Part shown: in pieces, positions 410-27,277 of the stretch
How the letters are laid out: every line of letters starts with the position of its first letter
Numbering within the stretch: the first letter of the stretch is position 1
DNA from: Chitinophagaceae bacterium
Lineage (GTDB): Bacteria > Bacteroidota > Bacteroidia > Chitinophagales > Chitinophagaceae
Length of the DNA: 40,279 bases
Direction of reading: 5' to 3'
NCBI GenBank assembly: GCA_947476485.1
Contig: CANJQU010000031.1
Span: forward strand, 1 to 40,279
Made by a program: the position numbers and the translations under genes
The notes under the pieces: model-generated
The model's input: only the letters and a program-made list of their open reading frames with translations
Databases searched by the model: none
Told to the model about the DNA's origin: nothing

Positions 410-444
410 AAGAGGTGTCTTTTCATAAAAAAGATCAGGAAATA

Positions 445-1155
445 ATGGCGGAGGAAAAACTTCGGGAGGCGCAGATGACGCCAGAGGATAGCATTATCCG
501 GTCGTATTATGATGAAACAGCGGAATACTATGATCATAGCAGATTTGAAAATACTTATGGTAGTTTTATACACAGGCAGGAGCGTAGTATTTTACTGAAA
601 GAAATAACAAATATTCAAGGTGTAAATGTTGATCTGTGCTGTGGTACGGGCCGCTTTATGGAGTTTGCGTGCTATGGAGTGGATGCCAGCAGCAAAATGG
701 TGGCGCAAGCTAAATTGAAGCATGGTAATAAGGAGTTTTTTGTTGAAGATGCCGCCAACACCCATTTCGGAAATGAGTGCGCAGATACAATATTCTGCTT
801 TCACGTATTTATGCATTTGTCTGAAACGAAGACGACTGAGATCATCGATGAAGCACACAGGATACTGCGCCCCGGCGGGATGTTTATTTTTGACTTTCCA
901 TCGAAAAGCCGCAGAGCATTGTTTAATAAACAGAAAGAGGGATGGCATGGTGCGAGTGGGTATACAATTGATGAGATAACAAAGCAAGCCGGCGAGAAAT
1001 TGCGCATCAAAACATATTATGGAGTGCTTTTCTTTCCAATTCACAGATTGCCATCATGGCTGCGAAAATATTTTTTTCATTTTGACAGCATTTTGTGCCG
1101 CTCAATATTTAAAAAGTACGCATCCTATTTAGTTATCGTATTGGTCAAGAAATGA
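445..1155 (+). CDS. Class I SAM-dependent methyltransferase
   Basis: A 236-residue protein with the class I Rossmann methyltransferase pattern. Motif I is VDLCCGTGR at about residues 62-70, an acidic residue follows in YGVDAS, and the region FVEDAANTHF then FHVFMHL matches the usual motif II/III area. HRILRPGGMFIFDFPS near residues 140-155 is the typical post-II strand-turn of Methyltransf_11/25 enzymes. It transfers a methyl group from SAM, but the acceptor cannot be read from the sequence. I chose ATG 445 over GTG 415 because a -7 promoter box at 402-409 puts the transcript start next to the GTG. The stop overlaps the VanW-family start by 4 bp (ATGA), so the two genes are translationally coupled. 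The convergent NRPS fragment downstream makes tailoring of a natural product or cell-envelope lipid conceivable, which is inference only. Confidence 0.8.
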   Translation: MAEEKLREAQMTPEDSIIRSYYDETAEYYDHSRFENTYGSFIHRQERSILLKEITNIQGVNVDLCCGTGRFMEFACYGVDASSKMVAQAKLKHGNKEFFVEDAANTHFGNECADTIFCFHVFMHLSETKTTEIIDEAHRILRPGGMFIFDFPSKSRRALFNKQKEGWHGASGYTIDEITKQAGEKLRIKTYYGVLFFPIHRLPSWLRKYFFHFDSILCRSIFKKYASYLVIVLVKK

Positions 1156-1883
1156 CAAAGCTACTTTCCAAAAACATACGGCTCCTTTACAGGTTTTGGA
1201 TGAGACGGTATCGTGACTTTATCTCCGGAGCATACAGATCGTTTGCCCGGGAGCGGCGCAGCGCGTTGAGTTTTGAGCATTCATTTTCGCTGACCCAACC
1301 GATCATGAAGAGTACGCACCTGCAGAATAAGATCCACAATATCAGAAATGGTGTGGAGAAAATTGAATGGCTGGTGATATTGCCGAATGAGGTGTTCTCG
1401 TTTTGGAACACGGTGAAATGCCCGAATAAAAGGAACGGGTATAAACTGGGCCGGAATATCATCAACGGCGAAGTGAGCGAGGATTACGGAGGGGGGCTAT
1501 GCCAACTGGCGAGTATCATGTATCACACATCTATTATTTGCGGCATGACGATCGCAGAGCGGCACAATCATTCGGTGGACATTTATAATGACGATGAACG
1601 TTTCACCCCGTTGGGCGCTGATGCATCGGTTGTGTATGGTTACAAGGACCTGAGGATCAGGAACAATTATGCCGGTGCGGTAAAATTCACATTTGATGTG
1701 ACTGATGAAAGCCTGACTTGTGTGTTATCCAGTAGTATGAAAATTGACCAGAAGATCATTCTTTTTAAGGAAACAAAAGGCAAGGAGCATGTTGAAATAG
1801 TAACTGCTTCCCGGTCTGCAGGAACAGATGAAGAAGCAGTAATTAATAAAGCGATGTATAAAAAGAAGCGTAGTGGTATGTGA
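1152..1883 (+). CDS. VanW family protein
   Basis: A 243-residue protein with the hallmark VanW segments: GGGLCQLAS followed by MYHTSIICGM, then AERHNHS, then FTPLGADASVVYGYKDLR (roughly residues 113-175). VanW proteins were first seen as accessory genes in vancomycin-resistance clusters, but they are widespread and their function is unknown. Here no vanHAX genes, ligase or two-component system is nearby, so resistance should not be inferred. I see no signal peptide; the N-terminus is basic (many Arg/Lys), suggesting a cytoplasmic or membrane-surface location. The start ATG overlaps the stop of the methyltransferase gene by 4 bp, so the two probably form one operon. The C-terminal tail beyond the VanW domain is Lys-rich and has no recognisable feature. 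Confidence 0.85.
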   Translation: MTKLLSKNIRLLYRFWMRRYRDFISGAYRSFARERRSALSFEHSFSLTQPIMKSTHLQNKIHNIRNGVEKIEWLVILPNEVFSFWNTVKCPNKRNGYKLGRNIINGEVSEDYGGGLCQLASIMYHTSIICGMTIAERHNHSVDIYNDDERFTPLGADASVVYGYKDLRIRNNYAGAVKFTFDVTDESLTCVLSSSMKIDQKIILFKETKGKEHVEIVTASRSAGTDEEAVINKAMYKKKRSGM

Positions 1884-1898
1884 GCTGTTTAAATGTCT

Positions 1899-3998
1899 TT
1901 AAGATCTTTCGGTTTTTTTTGTTTCGGCATCAAGGGCGGCTTGCATGATGTGTGCAAACCGTTCGCTATTGGGTGGGAAGAGGAACGTTTTATGGTCTCC
2001 GGGGACCTCGTGAACTTTCACACCTTTTTTTGCAAATTTGGCCCAGCCAAGGTATACCAGGTCATCGAGGAAATACAGCCGCTGCTCAACACGGAACAAG
2101 ATCATCTTCACATCGAGCGGCGCGAGGACGTAATTTGAAAGGGCTCTGTCGTACGTTTTTAATACTTCAGCCTCGTAATCGGTAAATGTATCCTTTGGTA
2201 TGATGATGCCGGGCGCGCCCAGCTTTTTCAATCGTCTCTGAGCCACTACCACCTGGTATTTGAATGCCTCGCCGGGATCGTGGATAAATGACTTTGCGAA
2301 AAACGGAACCTTGCGGAACTGACGCTTTACTTTATCGGCCAGGTATGCGGCTTTACTTTCTACCGCCTGATTGTTGCCGGCGTAGGTGTCCATCACTGCA
2401 AGGAATTTAATTTCCTTGCCGACTGCTTTTAACTGGCGCACCATTTCGTAAGCGATGAAGCCGCCCATTGAATAGCCTGCGAGTGCACAATTGCCATCGG
2501 GCACAACCTGCAACACTTCTTTGATATACCTGGCCGCAATTTCTTCGATGGTCTCCGGTATCTCTGTTTCCCGGTATAGGCCGAGCGCCTGAATACCATA
2601 GACAGGCTGGTCTGCATCAAAGTATTCACTTATTGATTTGAAGAGCAGAACATTAAGCCCTGCGCCGTGGATAAGAAATACGGGAACTTTACTCCCGGTT
2701 GTTTTAATGGGTACGATGGCCTCCCATCTGAATTCGGTTTTTTCATCGACCAGTTGCCGAGCTAATTTTTCTATGGTTGAATTATTGAACAGCGTAGCTA
2801 TGGGCAGGCGTTTACCAGTTTTCTTTTCAATGGCGACCATAACCTTTACTGCCAGCAAGGAGTGACCACCCAACTGGAAGAAATCGTCGGTGGGGTCCAG
2901 GTTATTCAGGCCGAGCACCTCATTCCAGATGCCTGTTATGATCTGTTCATTAGCCGTGAGCACTATGCGCCCTTTTGGTTTTTCAGTATCTTTTCGCGGG
3001 TGGGGCTTTGGCAGCGCTTTGCGATCGATCTTTGCATTTGGGGTTAAGGGGAATTTCTTCAGCGCTATGAAGTCTTCAGGAACCATGTATGCGGGCAGCA
3101 TGCCCGACAGGCTTTTTTTCCAGCTTTCAACAAGTTCAGCGGGAACATTCACTTCATTATTTACTATGGGTGTTCTTGCGAGATCGTAGATATTCTTTTG
3201 CATTTCTCCGCTGTCTGCGCATGGTGGTAATCGCAGTTTGCCTGATGCGGGAATAAATACTACGTCAAAAAGACCGTCACTGCCGTTGGTAGCCCACCTG
3301 ATATGCGTGTTGTATTTCAGTTTATCGCCGAGCGCCCAGAAAAGATCGGGATGCACGCCGACGGGCGCCTGTTCCACAGCGGTCCTTATGTCAGCAACCT
3401 TCATTGTTTCGTCTGCTGTACGCAGTAGCTGCAGCAGTTTGTGATCTTTGGACGTGCGGGAATTCGGTATGTTCTTTATTTCTACAACTGATCCGGCATT
3501 TGATGTCAACAGAGATCCCAGTTGATCTATGGTTTGAATGCTATCCCATTTTTTTGTGAGCTGTGGTTGCACCACTTCGGGGGCGCCGGAAGTGTAGAGC
3601 CAGATATCGTAGTGGTACTTCGTTGTCTCATTGACCGACTTTCCTTTTCTGAGCTGAACGTCAACGCCTGTGATCTGCGGGATGAGCGCAGGCAGCAGAT
3701 AGAAGAACGCCGGGTCGGCCACAAACTCTTCTTCAATGCGCACCCTGTTTGTTACCACATCCCGGAATTGACGGAGTGTAGTGTCGGCTGATGCCCGGTG
3801 CAGGTGATCCATGGCATGGTACATTTCCAGTGAGCCCATGCCCTGCATATCGCCAATGAAGAAGCACCCGTTTTGTTTCAGTGCATTGACCGCCTGCCGG
3901 ATCACATCGATCATGTATTCGGTATCGGGAAAGTATTGCGCAACACTGTTGAGCAGCACGAGGTCAAGCGGGGTATGGCCTGTGCCAAAGAAAGGCGC
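1899..3998 (-). CDS. Nonribosomal peptide synthetase, C-terminal fragment (MT / end of A / T / TE), 5' end missing
   Basis: Only the last part of a large NRPS is present. Numbering from the first possible start (GTG at 3959), residues 1-~190 are the second half of an N-methyltransferase domain of the kind inserted in adenylation domains (LLNSVAQYFPDTEY). The frame stays open and family-like upstream of that GTG (PLDLV..., to about 3990). Residues ~200-320 are the end of the A domain with core A10 (PNAKIDRKALPKP). A carrier domain follows with the phosphopantetheine Ser367 in LGGHSL. A type I thioesterase (~425-680) has Ser497 in GYSMGG, Asp524 and His656 in GDHKTF. This would be a terminal module adding an N-methylated residue and releasing the product. 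The C domain and most of the A domain are absent, because the gene is cut at ~3990, where an unrelated protease gene begins on the other strand. Confidence 0.85.
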   Translation of the reverse strand, partial: APFFGTGHTPLDLVLLNSVAQYFPDTEYMIDVIRQAVNALKQNGCFFIGDMQGMGSLEMYHAMDHLHRASADTTLRQFRDVVTNRVRIEEEFVADPAFFYLLPALIPQITGVDVQLRKGKSVNETTKYHYDIWLYTSGAPEVVQPQLTKKWDSIQTIDQLGSLLTSNAGSVVEIKNIPNSRTSKDHKLLQLLRTADETMKVADIRTAVEQAPVGVHPDLFWALGDKLKYNTHIRWATNGSDGLFDVVFIPASGKLRLPPCADSGEMQKNIYDLARTPIVNNEVNVPAELVESWKKSLSGMLPAYMVPEDFIALKKFPLTPNAKIDRKALPKPHPRKDTEKPKGRIVLTANEQIITGIWNEVLGLNNLDPTDDFFQLGGHSLLAVKVMVAIEKKTGKRLPIATLFNNSTIEKLARQLVDEKTEFRWEAIVPIKTTGSKVPVFLIHGAGLNVLLFKSISEYFDADQPVYGIQALGLYRETEIPETIEEIAARYIKEVLQVVPDGNCALAGYSMGGFIAYEMVRQLKAVGKEIKFLAVMDTYAGNNQAVESKAAYLADKVKRQFRKVPFFAKSFIHDPGEAFKYQVVVAQRRLKKLGAPGIIIPKDTFTDYEAEVLKTYDRALSNYVLAPLDVKMILFRVEQRLYFLDDLVYLGWAKFAKKGVKVHEVPGDHKTFLFPPNSERFAHIMQAALDAETKKTERS

Positions 3999-4003
3999 CC
4001 CGG
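3985..4003. other. Breakpoint joining two 5'-truncated divergent genes
   Basis: On the minus strand the frame reads as NRPS methyltransferase up to about 3990. On the plus strand the frame reads as protease propeptide from about 4003 (VLTKERAQQA). Neither gene has a credible start codon, signal peptide or promoter here. The plus-strand frame stays open upstream to 3811 only as antisense of the NRPS. The join lies in a GC-rich stretch containing GGCGCC. It is a deletion, a rearrangement or an assembly chimera. Confidence 0.65.
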
Positions 4004-6423
4004 TGCTTACGAAGGAACGCGCGCAGCAGGCAGCAGTTAATGACCTGGATGGGATAACAATTACCAGTGCCGAGATAACCGGTAACTGGGCATGGTTTCC
4101 TATCCCATCTGCGAATGGTTATACGATGCACCCGGCGTGGCCTTTTAAGATCACATCGAGGGTGCAAGGGAGTGTGCCGCTGAAACTTACGGGGTACGTT
4201 GATGCAGTTGACGGTACAGTACTGTATCGCACGAACGAGGTGAAAGAGACCGGCTATGACCTTACCGTGAAGGGTGTAGTGTATAAGAATGGTACGCTGA
4301 ACCCATCTTCAGTAGAGGCGCTTCCCAACCTTGGCCTGACAATTGGTGCGACCACTTACTTTACAGATACTACCGGAAAATATGCTGACACATCGATATC
4401 GTTGCCACTGCCCACGGCTATTCCACTCGCAGGCAGATGGTCAACTGTATTTGACTCTGTAACCGGCCTGATACCTACATTTTTCGATACGGTTCTGACG
4501 CCTGGAACCACCTTCATGTATCCTACTACTGCACCATGCAGCGGACGGCACATCAATGCATACTATCATGTGAACAGGGTGCATAATTTTATGAAAGGTT
4601 ATTTCCCTTCTTTTACCGATATGGACTTTTCGCTGCCGACTAATGTGGACCTGACGAGCGGTACCTGCAATGCTTTTTATACCGGCACTGATATCAACTT
4701 TTATGCGGCGGACGCCACATGCAATTCATTCTCTGAAATTGGTGATGTTATATACCACGAATATGGCCATGGCATATCCGATCATTTTTATACTGTTGTA
4801 AGTGGTGCAACGCTCGTAAATGGTGCGCTTAATGAGGCGAACTCAGATATTTGGGCATTGAGCATAACCCGGCACCCGGTAATGGCGGAGAACGCATTTG
4901 TGGGTTATGGAGGCTTTATCCGCAGGTATGATATGACGCCGCAGGTTTATCCCTTAGATCTTAACACGTCTCTCCTGGCCGATCCTCACCAGAATGGCCA
5001 GATCATAGCTGGCTGCTGGTGGGACCTGGGCGCTGCTGTGGGGAGCATAGATACCATGACGAGGCTTTTTACAGATGTATACTATGATGTACCGGACGGA
5101 CCAGATGGCACAGAAGGGGATGTGTACCAGACGATACTTGTGGATGCATTGATGGCCGATGATAACAACAGTAACCTGATTGATGGTACGCCGCATTATG
5201 CACAGATCGTGGCTGCGTTTGCAAAACACGGTATCTATCTTGAACGGGACGCGACGCTGACACATACTGAATTAGGCAACCAGCTACAAGGTGTACCAAT
5301 TCCTGTTTCTGCACATCTGTCACTCGGATCGGCTACTTATTTTCATGACCTTACCATGTATTACCGGATAAACGGTGCCGGCGCCTGGACGCCGGTGGTG
5401 CTCACAAACAGCAGCATGAACTTCACCGGAACGATACCGGCGCAGGACTTTGGCGCTACGGTTGAATACTATTTTATTGTGCATGACGGCCTAGGTTATC
5501 CCAATGCTTTTTTCCCGATCACCTGTAACCCGGCGATGGCAACAAGCCAGGTAACTATACCTTACCAATTTGGGGTAGGCATTGGTGCTGTAGACAGCAA
5601 TAACTTTGAAGCGTCAGCAGCAGGCTGGGGGATAGGTGGCAACGCCGGCGATAATGCAACTGATGGACTGTGGCACCAGGGTGTACCAATGCCAGCTACG
5701 ATTTTTTTTACTGCATGGCCTGACCAGGACCATACTACGGGCAGTGGTAAGTGCCTGATCACGGGTGCAGGGGCTTTGTTCTCCGGAACCGGAGTGACCG
5801 GCGGCACTTCGACGGTATTAACCCCGGTTTTTGATATTTCAGCATTCACCAACCCCGTGGTTGAATATTACCGTTGGTTCTCGAACGAGCAGGGGGCGAA
5901 TTTCAAGAATGATCCATGGATCGTGAAAATGAACGACGGTGCGGGTGGCGCGTGGCAGACCATAGAAAAGACTTATCAACCTGATGTAGCGTGGCGCCGC
6001 CGTATATTCGCCGTGAATACTTATTTGCCGGGTGCATCACATATTCAGTTGAAATTTTTTGCTTCCGATTCTCTGCTAATGTCCTGGGACAGCAACGGGC
6101 AAAGCACCACTGTTGGCGCGATTGACGACTTCTTTATCTACGACAAAAAGGATGTCTCAGCCGTAGGTGATGCGCAAATGCTGAAAGCAAATATTTATCC
6201 AAATCCGGCCAACGATGTGGTTAATATCATTTTATCGGAGGGCGGAAATGGTACTATCAGTTGTTATGATGTGCTTGGACAGAAGGTGGCAGAATTGACC
6301 ACAAGCACAGGTAGGACAAACTATTCGTTTAAAACAAAAGAACTGGCAGCGGGTACTTATAACCTTGTGATACAAACGGCAAAGAGTATCCAATCCAAGA
6401 AAATAGTTGTTGCACATCGGTAA
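4003..6423 (+). CDS. Secreted zinc metalloprotease (M36/M4-like gluzincin) with T9SS type A sorting domain, N-terminus missing
   Basis: About 806 residues remain, counted from the in-frame GTG at 4003. The first ~100 resemble the end of an FTP/PepSY-type propeptide (VLTKERAQQAAV, then VDAVDGTVLYRTNEV). The catalytic domain carries the zinc site HEYGH with His252, Glu253 and His256. The downstream Glu278 in NEANSDI is the probable third ligand, which makes it a gluzincin. The stretch NNSNLIDGTPHYAQIVAAF is typical of the M36-like group. A beta-sandwich region follows, and from ~727 a type A T9SS sorting domain (IYPNPANDVVNI). The protein would be exported across the outer membrane by T9SS and processed. 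The signal peptide and the start of the propeptide are missing because the gene is cut at ~4003. The longer frame beginning at 3811 is antisense to the NRPS and should not be read as protein. Confidence 0.8.
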   Translation: MLTKERAQQAAVNDLDGITITSAEITGNWAWFPIPSANGYTMHPAWPFKITSRVQGSVPLKLTGYVDAVDGTVLYRTNEVKETGYDLTVKGVVYKNGTLNPSSVEALPNLGLTIGATTYFTDTTGKYADTSISLPLPTAIPLAGRWSTVFDSVTGLIPTFFDTVLTPGTTFMYPTTAPCSGRHINAYYHVNRVHNFMKGYFPSFTDMDFSLPTNVDLTSGTCNAFYTGTDINFYAADATCNSFSEIGDVIYHEYGHGISDHFYTVVSGATLVNGALNEANSDIWALSITRHPVMAENAFVGYGGFIRRYDMTPQVYPLDLNTSLLADPHQNGQIIAGCWWDLGAAVGSIDTMTRLFTDVYYDVPDGPDGTEGDVYQTILVDALMADDNNSNLIDGTPHYAQIVAAFAKHGIYLERDATLTHTELGNQLQGVPIPVSAHLSLGSATYFHDLTMYYRINGAGAWTPVVLTNSSMNFTGTIPAQDFGATVEYYFIVHDGLGYPNAFFPITCNPAMATSQVTIPYQFGVGIGAVDSNNFEASAAGWGIGGNAGDNATDGLWHQGVPMPATIFFTAWPDQDHTTGSGKCLITGAGALFSGTGVTGGTSTVLTPVFDISAFTNPVVEYYRWFSNEQGANFKNDPWIVKMNDGAGGAWQTIEKTYQPDVAWRRRIFAVNTYLPGASHIQLKFFASDSLLMSWDSNGQSTTVGAIDDFFIYDKKDVSAVGDAQMLKANIYPNPANDVVNIILSEGGNGTISCYDVLGQKVAELTTSTGRTNYSFKTKELAAGTYNLVIQTAKSIQSKKIVVAHR

Positions 6424-6491
6424 GGATTGACGGTAATGTTCATCACTCTTATTTTGGAAATCCTGCATTCGCTGATCTGGTGCACGACCAG

Positions 6492-7916
6492 ATGCCAATA
6501 TTTCCTTATTTTACCTCCCCAAACCATATGATGCGAGGAGGTAAAACCCTTTTATATATTTTATCCATTGCGGGCTTTATTGCTGTGCTGTACTTTGTAC
6601 TTAGTGCTGGTAAGGGTCTGCAGGCTGCCCACATGGCCGGCGTGCAGTATGTATCATCGGGGGCGGCATTGAAGCATGATGTTGCCAGTGCGTTCAGGCA
6701 TCCACTGCCGATCTTCATTTTGCAGTTGGCAATGATATTGGTTGCCTCGCAGGTGTTTGGCTACCTTTTCAAGAAGATCGGGCAGCCGGCAGTAATGGGG
6801 GAAATAGTGGCAGGCATATTGCTTGGGCCGTCGCTGATGGGAGCGTTGCTGCCGGGGTTTAGTGCATTTCTGTTCCCGGCAACTTCTATGGGTAACCTGC
6901 AGATGCTGAGCCAGGTGGGCCTTATCCTGTTCATGTTTGTAATTGGCATGGAGCTGGATATAGAGGTGTTAAAAAAACAAGCTGGCGCGGCAATACTTAT
7001 CAGTCACTTTAGTATAGTCATACCCTTTGCATCGGGCGTTGCCCTTGCGTATTTCTTATATGAAAAATATGCCCCGGCAGGAGTTACTTTTTACGCGTTC
7101 GCATTATTTACTGGTATAGCGTTGAGTATTACTGCTTTTCCGGTCCTTGCACGGATCATTAAAGAGCGTGGAATAGCCAATACCAAACTGGGAACTATTG
7201 CACTTACGGCAGCTGCAGTGGGTGACGTGACGGCATGGTGTGCGCTGGCGCTTATTATTGCTATTGCAAGAGCCGGGTCACTGAGCGCGTCCTTATATAC
7301 CATCATGTGGGCTGTGGTGCACGTAGCAGTGATGTTTTTTGTAATTCGTCCTTTGCTGCAAAAGCTCGCAGTTAATGCCAGTCGTGATAAGCTTATAAAG
7401 CGCTCAAGGCTGGCGATCATCTTTCTCATCATGTTGGGCAGCGCGTATGCTTGCGAGATAATAGGCATACATGCTTTGTTCGGCGCCTTCCTGGCAGGTG
7501 TGATCATGCCGCACGACTGGAATTTCAGAAAGCTGCTGATCGATAAAATTGAGGATGTGGCGCTTGTTTTGCTGCTGCCTTTATTCTTTGTGTTTACGGG
7601 CTTGCGCACTCATATCGGCCTGATAAATAACCCTGCGCTGTGGGGTGTGTGCCTTATTATAATAGCAGTAGCAGTAGCGGGTAAATTTGGCGGGAGCGCA
7701 CTGGCAGCAAAGCTTGCAGGGGAGCGTACAAAAGATAGTCTATCTATCGGGGCATTGATGAACACAAGGGGGCTGGTGGAACTGGTGGTACTGAACATAG
7801 GCTATGACATGCATATACTTACACCGGAGATATTTACGATGATGGTGATGATGGCGCTGGTGACAACTTTTATGACCAATCCTCTTATGAATATTATTGA
7901 GCGGGTATATAAGTAA
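6492..7916 (+). CDS. Cation/proton antiporter, CPA2 (KefB/NapA-like) family
   Basis: A 474-residue integral membrane protein with about 12-13 hydrophobic segments and the CPA2 signature pieces GQPAVMGEIVAGILLGPS, LFMFVIGMELD, SITAFPVLARI and NTRGLVELVVLNIGYD. It would exchange monovalent cations (K+ or Na+) for protons across the inner membrane. The ion-binding helix reads AVGDVTAW, with Asp245 preceded by Gly rather than the Asp, Asn or Gln usual at that position. This may affect electrogenicity or ion choice (inference). There is no C-terminal RCK/TrkA-N domain, so the regulatory module of KefB/C is absent. I use ATG 6492; GTG 6480 and the ATG pair at 6528/6531 are alternatives. It follows the protease gene by under 70 bp on the same strand with no terminator seen between them. 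Confidence 0.88.
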   Translation: MPIFPYFTSPNHMMRGGKTLLYILSIAGFIAVLYFVLSAGKGLQAAHMAGVQYVSSGAALKHDVASAFRHPLPIFILQLAMILVASQVFGYLFKKIGQPAVMGEIVAGILLGPSLMGALLPGFSAFLFPATSMGNLQMLSQVGLILFMFVIGMELDIEVLKKQAGAAILISHFSIVIPFASGVALAYFLYEKYAPAGVTFYAFALFTGIALSITAFPVLARIIKERGIANTKLGTIALTAAAVGDVTAWCALALIIAIARAGSLSASLYTIMWAVVHVAVMFFVIRPLLQKLAVNASRDKLIKRSRLAIIFLIMLGSAYACEIIGIHALFGAFLAGVIMPHDWNFRKLLIDKIEDVALVLLLPLFFVFTGLRTHIGLINNPALWGVCLIIIAVAVAGKFGGSALAAKLAGERTKDSLSIGALMNTRGLVELVVLNIGYDMHILTPEIFTMMVMMALVTTFMTNPLMNIIERVYK

Positions 7917-16177: not shown

Positions 16178-18211
16178 ATGAATTTAAAACATGCAATAGT
16201 TGCCGGTTTGGGGGCTTTAGCTCTTATTGCCGGAGAAAATGTGAGCGCGCAGGAGCGAAAACTGCTGGATCCGGCCAATATGGATATGAGTGTGAAGCCG
16301 GGGGATAACTTTTTTATGTATGCCAATGGCACCTGGCTTGCAAAGAACCCGATCCCGGCAAGTGAAACACGCTGGGGTAGCTTCAACGAGCTGCTGGAGA
16401 ACAATTATAAAGCATTGCATACGCTGCTGGACGAAGCCGCAAACGCTAAAACTGCGCCGGCGGGCAGTAAGCAACAAAAAGTTGGTTACTTCTATCGCAC
16501 CGGGATGGACAGTGTTGCCATTGAAAAGCTTGGCCTCACTCCGTTAAAGGGTGTGTTGAACAGGATAAAGAATATCAAAGATACCAAGGGCCTCCTCGCT
16601 GAAATTACATTGGAGCATACCCAGGGAATCGGCACGTTGTTCAATTTCGGGATATCTCCCGATGATAAGAACGTATCCAAAGAGATATGCCAGTTCGGAC
16701 AAGGCGGACTTGGTATGCCAGACAGGGATTATTATTTTGATAAGGATGCAAGGACCACCAAGGTGCGGGATGCATACCAGCAATACGTTCCCCAGATGCT
16801 GATGTTGATGGGTGAGGACGAAGCTACTGCAAAAGCGGATGCGCAGAACATCTTCAACCTGGAGCGCGCATTGGCCGAAGCTTCTTTAACACGTACCGAG
16901 AGCCGCGACCCATACAAGCTTTATAACAAGTTCAACATTGCTTCGATCAACAAAGCAACACCGGGGCTGGACTGGAATGTGATGCTGGCCGGCCTGAAAA
17001 TAAAAGGACAGGATACGGTAATTGTTGGTATGCCAAAATTCTTTGAAGCAGTGGGTCATGAACTTAGCGCTACTTCTCTGGAAACATGGAAGAAATATCT
17101 TGCATTCCACCTAGTAAACAGCATGTCTCCGTTCCTGAGCAGCAATTTCGACCAGGCGCATTTCGGATTTTACGGGACTACAATTCGTGGCCAGCAGGCT
17201 CAGCGCCCACGCTGGAAGCGCGTATTGCAGGTGGTTGATGGTAACATTGGTGAATTGCTTGGCCAGTTGTATGTAGAAAAGTACTTCAGACCAGAAGCAA
17301 AGAAACGCATGCAGGAACTGGTAAGCAACCTTCAGACCACATACTCAGACCGTATCGATCACCTCGATTGGATGACTGCTGCAACAAAAACAAAGGCAAA
17401 AGCCAAGCTGAATTCCTTTATGAAGAAGATCGGCTATACCGACAAATGGAAAGATTACAGTGCGCTTACCGTTGTAAATAACGACTACGTAAGGAACATT
17501 TTATCGGCCAGCGCATGGGAGTATAACTACATGCTGAAGAAACTAGGCAAACCAGTTGACCGTAAAGAATGGGGCATGACGCCACCCACGGTGAATGCAT
17601 ATTATAATCCTGCTTTTAATGAGATCGTATTCCCTGCGGGGATCCTCCAGTATCCTTTCTTTGATGAGAAGGCAGATGACGCCGTGAATTACGGTGGTAT
17701 CGGTGGTGTGATAGGCCATGAAATGACCCATGGCTTTGATGACCAGGGCCGCCTTTACAATGCAGAAGGAAACCTGAGCAACTGGTGGAGCGCAGAAGAT
17801 TCGGCGAACTTCACGGTAAAAGCAAATATGATCGTAGACCAGTTCAACAAGATTGTTGTAATAGATACAAACCATGCAAATGGCAGCCTTACAGAAGGTG
17901 AGAATCTTGCTGACCTCGGCGGCATCAACATATCTTACGAGGCGTTCAAGAAAACAAAACAGGGCAAGAGCAACGAGAAGATCGATGGCTTTACGCCTGA
18001 TCAGCGTTTCTTCCTGAGCTGGGCACAGGTATGGCGTGCAAACACCCGTCCTGAAGAGATCGCTTCGCGTCTGAAGACAGATCCACACTCGCCAAGCCAG
18101 CTCAGGTGCAATGTGCCCGTGAGCAATGTTGAAGCATGGTATAAAGCTTTCGATGTAAAACCCGGTGACAAAATGTACCGTGCAGAAAATGAGCGTGCAA
18201 GGGTTTGGTAG
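16178..18211 (+). CDS. M13 family (neprilysin/PepO-like) zinc metallopeptidase, periplasmic copy
   Basis: A 677-residue exported peptidase. The signal peptide is residues 1-24, cut at VSA|QERK. The peptidase M13 N-terminal domain opens with DMSVKPGDNFFMYANGTW. The catalytic domain has NAYYNPAFNEIVFPAGILQ, the zinc site HEMTH (His514, Glu515, His518), the third ligand Glu575 in ENLADLGG, and the C-terminal Trp typical of the family (NERARVW). It should cleave short peptides in the periplasm. Length is normal. A degenerate -7 box (TACTTTCG at 16145-16152) lies upstream. The next gene is a close paralogue anchored as a lipoprotein; a strong terminator separates them. Confidence 0.95.
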   Translation: MNLKHAIVAGLGALALIAGENVSAQERKLLDPANMDMSVKPGDNFFMYANGTWLAKNPIPASETRWGSFNELLENNYKALHTLLDEAANAKTAPAGSKQQKVGYFYRTGMDSVAIEKLGLTPLKGVLNRIKNIKDTKGLLAEITLEHTQGIGTLFNFGISPDDKNVSKEICQFGQGGLGMPDRDYYFDKDARTTKVRDAYQQYVPQMLMLMGEDEATAKADAQNIFNLERALAEASLTRTESRDPYKLYNKFNIASINKATPGLDWNVMLAGLKIKGQDTVIVGMPKFFEAVGHELSATSLETWKKYLAFHLVNSMSPFLSSNFDQAHFGFYGTTIRGQQAQRPRWKRVLQVVDGNIGELLGQLYVEKYFRPEAKKRMQELVSNLQTTYSDRIDHLDWMTAATKTKAKAKLNSFMKKIGYTDKWKDYSALTVVNNDYVRNILSASAWEYNYMLKKLGKPVDRKEWGMTPPTVNAYYNPAFNEIVFPAGILQYPFFDEKADDAVNYGGIGGVIGHEMTHGFDDQGRLYNAEGNLSNWWSAEDSANFTVKANMIVDQFNKIVVIDTNHANGSLTEGENLADLGGINISYEAFKKTKQGKSNEKIDGFTPDQRFFLSWAQVWRANTRPEEIASRLKTDPHSPSQLRCNVPVSNVEAWYKAFDVKPGDKMYRAENERARVW

Positions 18212-18237
18212 ATCAAATTATTATTGACATTGTATCC

Positions 18238-18272
18238 GCAGGGGCGCAAATTTTGCGCCCCTGCATTTTTTA
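18238..18272 (+). terminator. Intrinsic terminator after the first M13 gene
   Basis: GCAGGGGCGC and GCGCCCCTGC form a perfect 10-bp GC-rich stem around AAATTTT, followed by ATTTTTT. It sits 26 bp after the stop codon, so the two M13 paralogues are separate transcription units. Confidence 0.9.
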
Positions 18273-18329
18273 ATGGTGTTTCACATTTAGATACATAAAC
18301 AATAATTACCGCTTACAAGTTGTTTATTG

Positions 18330-18337
18330 TAATTTTG
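18330..18337 (+). promoter_or_regulatory. -7 box (TAATTTTG) for the second M13 gene
   Basis: TAATTTTG fits TAnnTTTG exactly and lies 22 bp before the ATG, just after the terminator of the previous gene. No clear TTTG is found at the -33 position. Confidence 0.45.
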
Positions 18338-18359
18338 CGCGCCAATCATTATAAATAAT

Positions 18360-20399
18360 ATGCGTTTAAAGAGAATGATTCTTCCCGTTGCCCTTATTCT
18401 GATGGCAGCCTCCTGTAAGCATACTGAACCAACCAGCGCAGTCTATAAGATGATAGACAAAGGCAACCTGGATACCTCTGTTCGTCCAGGTGATGACTTT
18501 TACCAGTTTGCAAACGGCAACTGGAGAAAGAAAAACCCGATACCGAAGTCCGAAACCGAGTGGGGGAGTTTCAGCGAAGTCCAGGAAAATACCTACAAGG
18601 CATTGCATGCCATACTCGATTCTGCTGCAGCCATTGGTAATGCCCCTAAAGGGAGCATAATTCAAAAGGTTGGTGATTTTTACCGCAGCGGTATGGATAG
18701 CATCACCATCAACAAGGTGGGAATGTCACCTGTGAGCGATATTATGGCCCACATCAATAATATTGGCGATGTAAATGGTCTTCTTGCCGAGATAGCTAAC
18801 GAGCATATGCTGGGCCTGGACCCGGTATTTAGTTTTGGTATTGGTCCGGACGATAAAAATGTTTCAAAAATAATATGCCAGTTCGGCCAGGGCGGTCTTG
18901 GGCTACCCGGCAGGGAATATTACTTTGATAAGGATGCCCGGACCGTGAAAATAAGGGAGGCATACAGGAAATATATTCCTGCTATATTGATGATGATCGG
19001 CGAGGATATGGTTACTGCCAACCAGGACGCTGAAGATATTTACAAACTGGAGCTTTCGCTGGCTTCAGTATCGCTGTCATCGGCCGAGATGCGTGATCCG
19101 TATAAGTTGTACAATAAATTCCATCTCGATGCCCTGGACAAACATACCCCGGGACTTGAATGGAAAAAGCTCATGGCGCATTTGAAAGTAACAGGCCAGG
19201 ATACGGTACTCGTTGCAGAGCCGGCTTTTTTTGCTGGGGTTGCCCGGGACCTCAAAATGTTCCCGATCGATGTTTGGAAGAAATACATGAAATTTCACCT
19301 GGTAAATAACATGGCGGAGCATTTAAGCTCAGATTTCGACTCAGCCTATTTTAATTTTTATGGCAAGACCGTTTATGGACTAGAAGCGCAAAGACCTCGC
19401 TGGAAAAGAGTGCTGAATATGGTGGATCAGTCTGAGGGTGAAATGCTCGGGCAATTGTACGTGGACCGGAAATTTAAGCCTGCGGCCAAAAAGAGAATGC
19501 TGGACCTGGTAGACAACCTGCAGAAAGCGTATGCAGAAAGGATACAAAAACTGGACTGGATGACCGACAGTACTAAGAAAAAAGCGTTGGTAAAGCTCAA
19601 TGCCTTTGTTAAGAAAATAGGCTATCCCGACAGGTGGAAAAATTACGCAGACCTTGAAATAGTAGGCCACGATTATGTAAAGAACATTTTCGCAGCAGCG
19701 CTCTGGAATTATAATTATGCTCTGAACAAGCTAGGTAAGCCCGTAAACAAGAACGAATGGCAAATGACCCCGCCAACCGTTAATGCCTATTATAATGCGT
19801 CGTTCAATGAGATCGTTTTCCCGGCTGGTATCCTCCAATATCCCTTCTTTGACGAGAATGCCGATGATGCAGTGAACTATGGCGGAATAGGCGCAGTGAT
19901 CGGTCATGAAATGACGCATGGTTTTGATGACCAGGGACGACTGTACAATGCCGACGGCAACCTCGCTAATTGGTGGGTGCCTGCAGATTCAGCTAACTTT
20001 GTTACTAAGGCGAATATTATGGTAGGACAGTTCAGCAAGATCGTGGTGATAGATACCATTCACGCCAACGGCCACCTTACTGAAGGAGAGAACCTTGCAG
20101 ATCTCGGAGGATTGAATATTGCATATGAAGCCTTCAAGAAAACAAAGCAAGGGCAGAGTAATGACCTGAAAGACGGTTTTACGCCTGATCAGCGGTTTTT
20201 CCTGAGTTGGGCCCAGGTGTGGCGTATGAACCAGCGGCCGGAAGCACTTGCCGCCCAGGTGAAAACCGACGGACATTCACCAACATCCCTGCGGGTAAAC
20301 GTCCCGGTAAGCAATATGGCCGCCTGGTACAAGGCTTTTAATATTAAACCCACCGATAAACTGTTCCGGCCCGAAAATGAAAGGGCTCGGATATGGTAG
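18360..20399 (+). CDS. M13 family zinc metallopeptidase, lipoprotein paralogue
   Basis: A 679-residue paralogue of the preceding gene, with long near-identical blocks (for example around the zinc site, YYFDKDAR and DGFTPDQRFFLSWAQVWR). It differs at the N-terminus, where a lipobox MAASC gives a lipidated Cys19, so this copy is membrane-anchored rather than soluble. The zinc site is HEMTH (His516, Glu517, His520), with Glu577 in ENLADLGG. The C-terminus is NERARIW. The residue after Cys is Lys. It should degrade oligopeptides at the periplasmic face or the cell surface. It has its own -7 box, so it can be regulated separately from the soluble copy. A tandem duplication followed by a change of signal peptide is the simplest history. 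Confidence 0.95.
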   Translation: MRLKRMILPVALILMAASCKHTEPTSAVYKMIDKGNLDTSVRPGDDFYQFANGNWRKKNPIPKSETEWGSFSEVQENTYKALHAILDSAAAIGNAPKGSIIQKVGDFYRSGMDSITINKVGMSPVSDIMAHINNIGDVNGLLAEIANEHMLGLDPVFSFGIGPDDKNVSKIICQFGQGGLGLPGREYYFDKDARTVKIREAYRKYIPAILMMIGEDMVTANQDAEDIYKLELSLASVSLSSAEMRDPYKLYNKFHLDALDKHTPGLEWKKLMAHLKVTGQDTVLVAEPAFFAGVARDLKMFPIDVWKKYMKFHLVNNMAEHLSSDFDSAYFNFYGKTVYGLEAQRPRWKRVLNMVDQSEGEMLGQLYVDRKFKPAAKKRMLDLVDNLQKAYAERIQKLDWMTDSTKKKALVKLNAFVKKIGYPDRWKNYADLEIVGHDYVKNIFAAALWNYNYALNKLGKPVNKNEWQMTPPTVNAYYNASFNEIVFPAGILQYPFFDENADDAVNYGGIGAVIGHEMTHGFDDQGRLYNADGNLANWWVPADSANFVTKANIMVGQFSKIVVIDTIHANGHLTEGENLADLGGLNIAYEAFKKTKQGQSNDLKDGFTPDQRFFLSWAQVWRMNQRPEALAAQVKTDGHSPTSLRVNVPVSNMAAWYKAFNIKPTDKLFRPENERARIW

Positions 20400-25753: not shown

Positions 25754-26260
25754 ATGAAAACCATCGCAATGTCGGTATTGTTTATTGTATTCATAGCGGG
25801 TAATTTTTGTTATGCGCAAAATAGCATATTCGCCGGAAAAATAGTGGACGAAGATAATAAACCTATCCCCGGGGCGATATTAAAAGTGAGCAGCAAAACG
25901 CTGTCGCCTATTGAAGTTAAGTCAGATTCCGATGGTCTTTACTGTTCAAAGCCGATTGCAACGGGACATTATCATTTAGCGATTTTCGTAAACAACGAAT
26001 GCCGCGGACTGAAGAAATTGTCATTGGATGAATACTCAGGCTCGAAGAAATTTTTCCTGGTAAGAGTTCTTGGTGGCAAGGTTGAGGTGAGCAGAATGGA
26101 CAGTGATCCTGCCATGGCCGTTAAGCTAAACAAATTAGCAAATGAGGATCCCCGGTTTGATGTTTTTTTTGACCAGATAATCCGTGTTACTAAAAAAGAC
26201 ACAACCAACAAGAACACCACGCCGGTAAAAACTCCCGGCGAGAGAGTGCCGCAAAATTAA
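25754..26260 (+). CDS. Small secreted carboxypeptidase-regulatory-like protein, copy 1 of 3
   Basis: A 168-residue exported protein. The signal peptide is residues 1-21, with cut CYA|QNS. The mature part begins with a CarboxypepD_reg/transthyretin-like beta-sandwich: FAGKIVDEDNKPIPGAILKVS, then DSDGLYCSKPIATGHYHLAIF. A Ser/Gly/Lys segment SGSKKFFLVRVLGGKVEVS and a Lys/Thr/Pro-rich tail follow. In Bacteroidota this domain usually caps TonB-dependent receptors or larger surface proteins; here it stands nearly alone. The function is unknown. It is the first of three tandem paralogues on one strand with gaps of 15 and 45 bp, so they are probably one operon. Confidence 0.7.
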   Translation: MKTIAMSVLFIVFIAGNFCYAQNSIFAGKIVDEDNKPIPGAILKVSSKTLSPIEVKSDSDGLYCSKPIATGHYHLAIFVNNECRGLKKLSLDEYSGSKKFFLVRVLGGKVEVSRMDSDPAMAVKLNKLANEDPRFDVFFDQIIRVTKKDTTNKNTTPVKTPGERVPQN

Positions 26261-26275
26261 TAGTTTTACTTGCCG

Positions 26276-26803
26276 ATGAAAAACTGCCTCCTCTGCCTTT
26301 CTGTTGTACTGATCATTTCAACTAATTTATCCTATGGCCAAAAAAGCACATTTTCCGGAAGAATTGTGGATCAGAACAACAGGCCTGTTCCAGGCGCTGT
26401 GATCAAAGTGAGCAGGCCAGACCAGCCGCCGATCGAAGCAGTGTCGGATAGTGATGGCCTGTATAGCACGACGCTTGTTCCCGAGGGTTACTATTATCTT
26501 GATGTTTTTTCGGAAGGGAAATACCGTGGAGTAAAAGAATTAGTGTTGGATTCGGTATCGGGGTCAAAAAAGTTTTTTCTCATAAATGTGCACAGCAGAA
26601 AATTTGCGATCAGCGCGGTTGACAAAGACCCGGGAATGTCATATAAACTTGGGAAAAAAGAGCACTCAGATATTCAACGATCGGCAGCTATTGATAACAA
26701 GGGAACTTATATGTTTATGCTGAAAGTAGATACCACCAGGTCAAAAGCAGATACCACGCCAGCGCCGAAACCCCTGCCTCATAAGAAAAGTACCTATTAC
26801 TAA
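26276..26803 (+). CDS. Small secreted carboxypeptidase-regulatory-like protein, copy 2 of 3
   Basis: A 175-residue paralogue of the previous gene. The signal peptide is cut at SYG|QKS. The domain reads FSGRIVDQNNRPVPGAVIKVS, SDSDGLYSTTLVPEGYYYL and VSGSKKFFLINV, closely following copy 1. The tail is Lys/Thr/Pro-rich (KADTTPAPKPLPHKK) and differs from the other copies. I use ATG 26276 rather than TTG 26270, because it gives the compact Met-Lys-Asn start. It lies 15 bp after copy 1, so cotranscription is likely. The function is unknown. Confidence 0.7.
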   Translation: MKNCLLCLSVVLIISTNLSYGQKSTFSGRIVDQNNRPVPGAVIKVSRPDQPPIEAVSDSDGLYSTTLVPEGYYYLDVFSEGKYRGVKELVLDSVSGSKKFFLINVHSRKFAISAVDKDPGMSYKLGKKEHSDIQRSAAIDNKGTYMFMLKVDTTRSKADTTPAPKPLPHKKSTYY

Positions 26804-26848
26804 GTGGGCATTTGACTTGATGGTATGTTTTTTTTGAAAACTATATAC

Positions 26849-27277
26849 ATGAAAAAGATCACACTTTGTTTCCTGTTCTTTGCGCTGATATATTCTGCCA
26901 ATACTGCCTTTGCGCAGGAACGCCTGATGGAGGGAAAGGTAGTAGACTCACTCAGCAAGCCGGTATGGGGAGCAATAGTAAGAATAAGCAAACAAGGTAA
27001 GCTTGTAACAGCAGTTCATTCTGGCAATGATGGTGTTTTTCGTTCGGAGCTTATTGATGAAGGACAATACGATATAGAGGTGATCATAGAGGGGAAAACT
27101 GTCTCGGCAAGGAAACTGTTCTTTAATGCCGAAGCGGCAATAAAAAGATACTACATACTTAAAGTTTTGAACGACAGGGTAGAGGTCAGCAAAGTTGGTG
27201 AGAAGAAATTCACCGAAATGGACATAAGAGAAAGAAGAGATGTTCAAAGAGCGCATCAGACCAGGAAACTTAGGTAG
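26849..27277 (+). CDS. Small secreted carboxypeptidase-regulatory-like protein, copy 3 of 3
   Basis: A 142-residue, more divergent member of the trio. The signal peptide is cut at AFA|QER. The domain reads MEGKVVDSLSKPVWGAIVRIS, NDGVFRSELIDEGQYDIEV and KVLNDRVEVSKVG. It lacks the SGSKKFF block and the Thr/Pro-rich tail; the C-terminus is highly charged and Arg-rich (DIRERRDVQRAHQTRKLR). ATG 26849 is preferred over ATG 26825, because it gives a normal Met-Lys-Lys signal peptide. Function unknown. Confidence 0.68.
   Translation: MKKITLCFLFFALIYSANTAFAQERLMEGKVVDSLSKPVWGAIVRISKQGKLVTAVHSGNDGVFRSELIDEGQYDIEVIIEGKTVSARKLFFNAEAAIKRYYILKVLNDRVEVSKVGEKKFTEMDIRERRDVQRAHQTRKLR

Follow-up and report, generated by a model that had tools for sequence, protein, structure and literature searches.

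A single point in the 40,279-b stretch analysed here (the window, which is the entire contig C31 of its assembly) joins an NRPS gene on the minus strand head to head with the gene for a T9SS-type metalloprotease on the plus strand, and both genes lack their 5' part (Table 1). This fusion, which the original prediction had proposed, was confirmed by alignment with 19 NRPS loci and 11 congeneric protease loci; the same relatives show each of the lost parts and so support the accompanying claim that one event, whether a deletion or rearrangement in the genome or the formation of a chimeric contig, removed both 5' ends. We give a little better than an even chance to the reading in which one real deletion produced both truncations. 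The evidence does not settle the matter but leans modestly to a deletion over an artefact: searches of the assembled genome did not recover the missing parts, the composition of the left flank fits that genome and no sequence of k-mer size is shared at the joint. Counted against a deletion are the left-hand genes, which are without close counterparts in the 34 congeners searched, the grouping of the NRPS with genus g112 and the location of the joint near a contig end. The type of event itself is an ordinary one.

Table 1. Features at and around the joint, in window coordinates.
Feature	Position	Strand	Basis
Class I SAM methyltransferase gene, left of the joint	415..1155	+	Pfam Methyltransf_11
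VanW-domain protein gene, left of the joint	1152..1883	+	Pfam VanW
5'-truncated NRPS: end of methyltransferase insert, C-terminal part of A domain, T, thioesterase; no internal stop	1899..3980	-	Pfam PP-binding and Thioesterase; 19 relatives
Open stretch in the protease frame, antisense to the NRPS	3811..3984	+	Open reading frames, protease relatives; lipobox-like start inside, weak
Breakpoint interval, where NRPS homology stops and protease homology starts	3979..3987		Column conservation, 19 NRPS and 11 protease relatives
5'-truncated zinc metalloprotease with T9SS type A sorting tail, without leader and first part of propeptide; no internal stop	3985..6423	+	Pfam Por_Secre_tail and Peptidase_M4; congeneric frames
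Cation/H+ antiporter-like gene, 3' of the protease	6480..7916	+	Same order in congener G005; 86% identity in L083

The 19 loci that align to the minus-strand frame all extend further 5' than it does. Fourteen (L051-L056, L058-L063, L067 and L068) have an open frame of 1730-2820 aa, the part matched by the window beginning 1036-1061 residues into it, and three others (L064-L066) have frames of 1474 aa with the matched part beginning 1049-1064 residues in; L050 and L057 are cut by contig ends. Full relatives have frames of about 1,730-1,760 aa with the domain order C-A-MT-T-TE, as exemplified by the 1757 residues of L052 from Flavipsychrobacter stenotrophus RB1R16, and about 1,050 aa of such a protein are missing in the window. 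The carrier and thioesterase domains are retained together with their motifs, as evidenced by Pfam matches (PP-binding, 1.9e-16; Thioesterase, 5e-24) and by LGGHSL and GYSMGG, read from the sequence. The condensation domain and the adenylation core, both present in L052, gave no Pfam match in the window NRPS frame. The longer relatives and the domain order of L052 thus bear out the predicted loss of the C domain and most of the A domain, and an NRPS stump without a C domain and adenylation core is unable to make a peptide on its own.

On the plus strand, the protease retains a thermolysin-like region, with the motif HEYGHG read from the sequence, and a C-terminal sorting domain (Por_Secre_tail, 1.2e-13; TIGR04183, 1e-11). 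Eleven congeneric loci (L004-L014) align with it, and in 10 of them the open frame measures 962-1006 aa (961-985 when counted from the first Met), the other, L014, being cut downstream by a contig end. All 11 encode a leader-like N-terminus and 159-167 residues (about 160) that are absent from the window, where antisense NRPS sequence occupies the place that the leader-like N-terminus holds in the relatives; the secretion signal is therefore lost, as had been predicted, and a protease without a leader should not reach the T9SS. Long protease matches were found in 12 of the 34 congeners, at 80% identity in G005 and 53-67% in the 11 others. At the G005 locus (L083) the protease is followed by an 86%-identical counterpart of the next gene in the window, in the same order; from reading its sequence, we take this gene to be antiporter-like. 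Of the 10 congeneric loci that could be judged on a mechanical ORF map, 8 have a divergent ORF upstream of the protease (L073-L077, L079, L080 and L082, with the tandem pair of L080 counted once; this ORF is arranged otherwise in L072 and L081, and L078 and L083 were not judged), and a divergent neighbor is thus the usual layout for this protease.

Two of these loci have features of their own. One congener carries the T9SS-tailed protease as two tandem copies (L080, G016:C127, 4985-11059). The nearest relative of the window protease (L083, G005:C390, 2457-4793) lies on a contig that ends ~100 bases from the equivalent of the window joint, at window-equivalent 4087, which may be chance or may mark a place that is hard to assemble in the genus.

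Column conservation in the two sets of relatives locates the joint. Moving toward it along the NRPS, conserved columns are matched strongly up to the D at 3963-3965 (18/19) and fairly up to the G at 3978-3980 (7/19), after which conservation is lost: between 3987 and 4001, conserved A (19/19), D (16), D (18) and S (16) columns are unmatched by the window. Isolated matches do occur past the joint, at an F (19/19) at 3990-3992 and further out at V (9/19), A (11/19) and L (15/19), with mismatches between them, and we take these scattered matches to be chance since the conserved columns next to them are unmatched. Protease conservation opens at the P at 3985 (11/11), and a Y (10/11) and a G (11/11) just before it, at 3976-3981, are unmatched. 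Together the two patterns place the breakpoint at about 3979-3987. The single meeting point of the original prediction therefore stands, but its position at 3990-4003 does not, the true joint lying ~10-15 bases further left. By the same measure about 10 bases at most can be assigned to both genes. No repeat was found at the joint, the only pairs within 3600-4400 being of 11-14 nt and located elsewhere, and DNA folding there is not special (z 0.56).

Upstream of the protease homology, the plus frame is antisense to the NRPS, again as predicted, the ORF that starts at 3811 remaining antisense up to the joint. A GTG at 3959 on the minus strand and an ATG at 3811 on the plus strand give formally open frames, so that the short forms could in principle be genuine genes with starts near the joint, an explanation we find hardly credible. 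The original prediction had named relatives with such starts as what would speak for genuine short forms; none of the 19 NRPS loci and none of the 11 congeneric protease loci (L004-L014) has a start at the joint, and the nearest protease (L003/L083) is cut by a contig end. Moreover, the NRPS start would fall inside the methyltransferase fold and the N-terminus of the protease would consist of antisense NRPS sequence. Stops are absent from both stumps, over 2.1 kb in the NRPS and 2.4 kb in the protease, and the event is therefore recent or artificial.

If used, the open antisense stretch would give the fusion a novel 58-aa N-terminus. Downstream of in-frame ATGs at 3838 and 3856 come KK, then a short run of apolar residues and the lipobox-like LTAC, and by these sequence features the deletion could have happened to supply the truncated protease with a putative lipoprotein-type leader. 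When 3000 antisense open stretches of equal length were drawn at random from this genome, 13 had a lipobox-like start, 8 of the 13 being at least as apolar, and among 5000 random open stretches of all types the count was 28; these frequencies apply to a pattern that was chosen after seeing it and whose apolar run is weak. We regard it as very improbable that the fusion is real and that the truncated protease continues to be produced, its new N-terminus being translated from NRPS antisense sequence.

The 5' parts missing from the two stumps were sought in the own genome (G000), a 4.58-Mb assembly of 215 contigs with an estimated completeness of 99.1% and contamination of 1.5%. A profile of the protease N-terminus, built from the first 140 residues of 10 congeneric loci, found no match in G000, even at E 1. 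In a control over 35 genomes (the own genome included, with 21 congeners) the profile matched seven, namely six congeners and, weakly, G041. Among the 21 congeners searched, no others have a long protease match that is uncut, and G016, the sole one of the six without rows in the profile, was found twice (2.5e-53 and 5.2e-47). The profile missed G005, in which the contig ends at window-equivalent 4087, and the more distant G038, G040, G044, G046, G047 and G049 despite their long protease matches, the latter implying that its reach is the genus. On the NRPS side, the upstream part of L052 gave only five matches in G000, all to the AMP-binding region at 26-36% identity, and the C domain of L052 gave none. 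Judged by these sequence searches, which cover contigs from 3,039 b up and have a positive control for the protease part, the assembled genome appears to hold neither missing part, although either could sit on a lost contig under 3 kb.

A single deletion between divergent genes implies that both missing parts are gone, as was found. A different genuine rearrangement, in which a horizontally acquired left block was inserted into the protease gene or inverted against it, with the other boundary and the 5' part of the protease either lost or left out of the assembly, would by contrast keep the 5' parts of both protease and NRPS in the genome, where neither was found. The joint also has no repeat, and the window contains no tRNA; no transposase was recognised by eye in the ORF lists. 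This reading draws on the accessory look of the left block, set against the synteny of the protease and its next gene with congener G005, and we consider it improbable.

The remaining alternative is a chimeric contig, in which the left 4 kb (the ORF at 1-246, the methyltransferase and VanW genes and the 3' part of the NRPS) originated in a different organism, or at a different site of the genome, and became attached to the protease contig by way of a chimeric read, gap filling or a mistake in assembly. We hold this to be possible, with odds appreciably short of even. From a chimeric read, gap filling or another artefact one would expect a left block that is foreign to the genus, and that too is observed. 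The VanW gene was found in 0 of 34 congeners and 0 of 11 g112 genomes, and among 60 genomes only in the own genome and in G041, a member of another family of the order (35-48%). For the ORF at 1-246 there was no match in the 48 other genomes searched, in which the methyltransferase gave only weak generic matches. The congeners likewise offered weak or partial matches to the NRPS frame: carrier-thioesterase matches in the 34 genomes reached at most 36-39% for the better ones, and G026 gave two matches over the methyltransferase part, at 29-30%. The VanW and SAM methyltransferase genes adjoin each other here in a Bacteroidota genome, with their ends overlapping at 1152-1155.

Closer relatives of the NRPS lie elsewhere in the family (f1), to which both the own genome and genus g112, the Flavipsychrobacter group, belong. 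Among 394 family genomes, 43 (own included) passed E 1e-60 with the NRPS frame; 10 others, six from g112 (57-69%) and four from g43 (48-50%), matched most of the frame at no less than 48%, and G402 and G134 matched a large part of it at 32%. A tree was built of 30 rows (22 different), leaving out 5 of 34 loci (L107-L111) with matches confined to the carrier-thioesterase part; in it the window grouped with L050 and L097 (support 99/98) inside a nine-row g112/Flavipsychrobacter set made up of the window and eight others (96/96). The g112 genomes G400 and G146 fell outside this set. The g112 NRPS rows are partly identical to Flavipsychrobacter stenotrophus or Chitinophagaceae bacterium sequences. 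This grouping favors a chimera. The idea that the left block is simply a piece of g112 as sampled was nonetheless rejected: the NRPS groups there, yet the VanW gene was not found in any of the 11 g112 genomes, and the methyltransferase and the ORF at 1-246 are without a close match in either genus. The left block had no DNA match among plasmids, and plasmid VanW proteins were all below 60% identity (28-34% in the 20 listed of 46 records). As judged from these sequence affinities, in which the right side is represented by the protease and the antiporter-like gene only, the left block is accessory and of mixed affinity.

Composition argues against a foreign left block. In tetranucleotide fit to G000, the left 3978 bases outrank 93 of 100 G000 chunks, and the block resembles G000 better than it does three sampled g112 genomes. 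By the difference between the G000 and G421 fits (G421 being the owner of the nearest NRPS relative), only 1 of 40 G421 chunks was as G000-like as the left block, and the corresponding counts were 0 of 17 for G273 and 0 of 20 for G349; the references were 20 stretches of 20 kb from G000, 8 stretches from G421 and 4 stretches of 15-20 kb each from G273 and G349. Codon use is ordinary for the genome, with the methyltransferase, VanW and NRPS genes ranking 244, 105 and 122 among 272 G000 ORFs. We took tetranucleotides and codon use as weak evidence only; a donor of similar composition would look alike.

The assembly itself bears on a chimera in both directions. It is divided into 215 contigs, the joint sits 4 kb from the end of its contig, and the smallest contig, C215, has 3,039 b (contig numbers appear to follow falling size among the contigs seen); these points, and the two stumps without stops, would suit an artefact. 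On the other hand, the protease 5' part was not found in the bin, although a simple misjoin predicts its presence there unless a contig of less than 3 kb carries it. Misjoining by way of a shared k-mer was rejected: assemblers use a k of 21 or more, such a misjoin needs about 21 bp or more of shared sequence, and the joint allows about 10 bases.

Elsewhere in the window, two adjoining and similar long ORFs of 677 and 679 aa (16178-20399) are presumably a tandem pair of M13-type zinc peptidases, as they appear from the GHEMTHGFDDQGR stretch, and the second has a lipoprotein-like leader. Three consecutive, similar small secreted-looking proteins of 168, 177 and 150 aa (25754-27277), to which we would ascribe a carboxypeptidase-regulatory-like look, are probably tandem duplicates.

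Under the deletion that we prefer, an ancestor would have carried the NRPS and protease genes side by side and divergently oriented, and one deletion, in this bacterium or in the sequenced lineage, would have taken the intervening stretch along with both 5' parts. Its ends would lie in the methyltransferase insert of the NRPS on the minus strand and in the propeptide region of the protease on the plus strand, and would have been joined with few shared bases at most, so that the join would be a feature of the organism and no product of assembly. The two genes were not seen as neighbors in any relative, the 34 congeners having no close NRPS relative and the nearest protease locus, in G005, being cut at a contig end. 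On this reading both genes are dead or nearly so, because the NRPS is without its C domain and adenylation core and the protease without its secretion leader. Neither should be called functional in annotation of this genome, and the NRPS does not belong in a tally of working biosynthetic clusters for the genus. Should the joint be real, it is a record of the acquisition and prompt loss of a peptide synthetase, close relatives of which were not found in the congeners searched; if artificial, the left 4 kb of the contig should come out of the genome.

Compared with the single-module NRPSs of L052 and L050, the window retains the end of the MT, the C-terminus of A, T and TE, at 64-65% identity to L052 and 69-70% to L050; unlike the C-A-MT-T-TE enzyme of L052, it lacks the C domain, the A core and the start of the MT, about 1,050 N-terminal residues in all. 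The protease shares the zinc-protease region and Por_Secre_tail with congeneric T9SS-tailed metalloproteases (M4/M36-like) and differs from them in having neither the leader nor about 160 N-terminal residues. Ordinary deletion junctions that truncate two neighboring genes are a known kind. The joint departs from these in that no intact parent locus is known for it and its cause may lie in the assembly, and it resembles them in having one cut point, few shared bases at most and no repeat.
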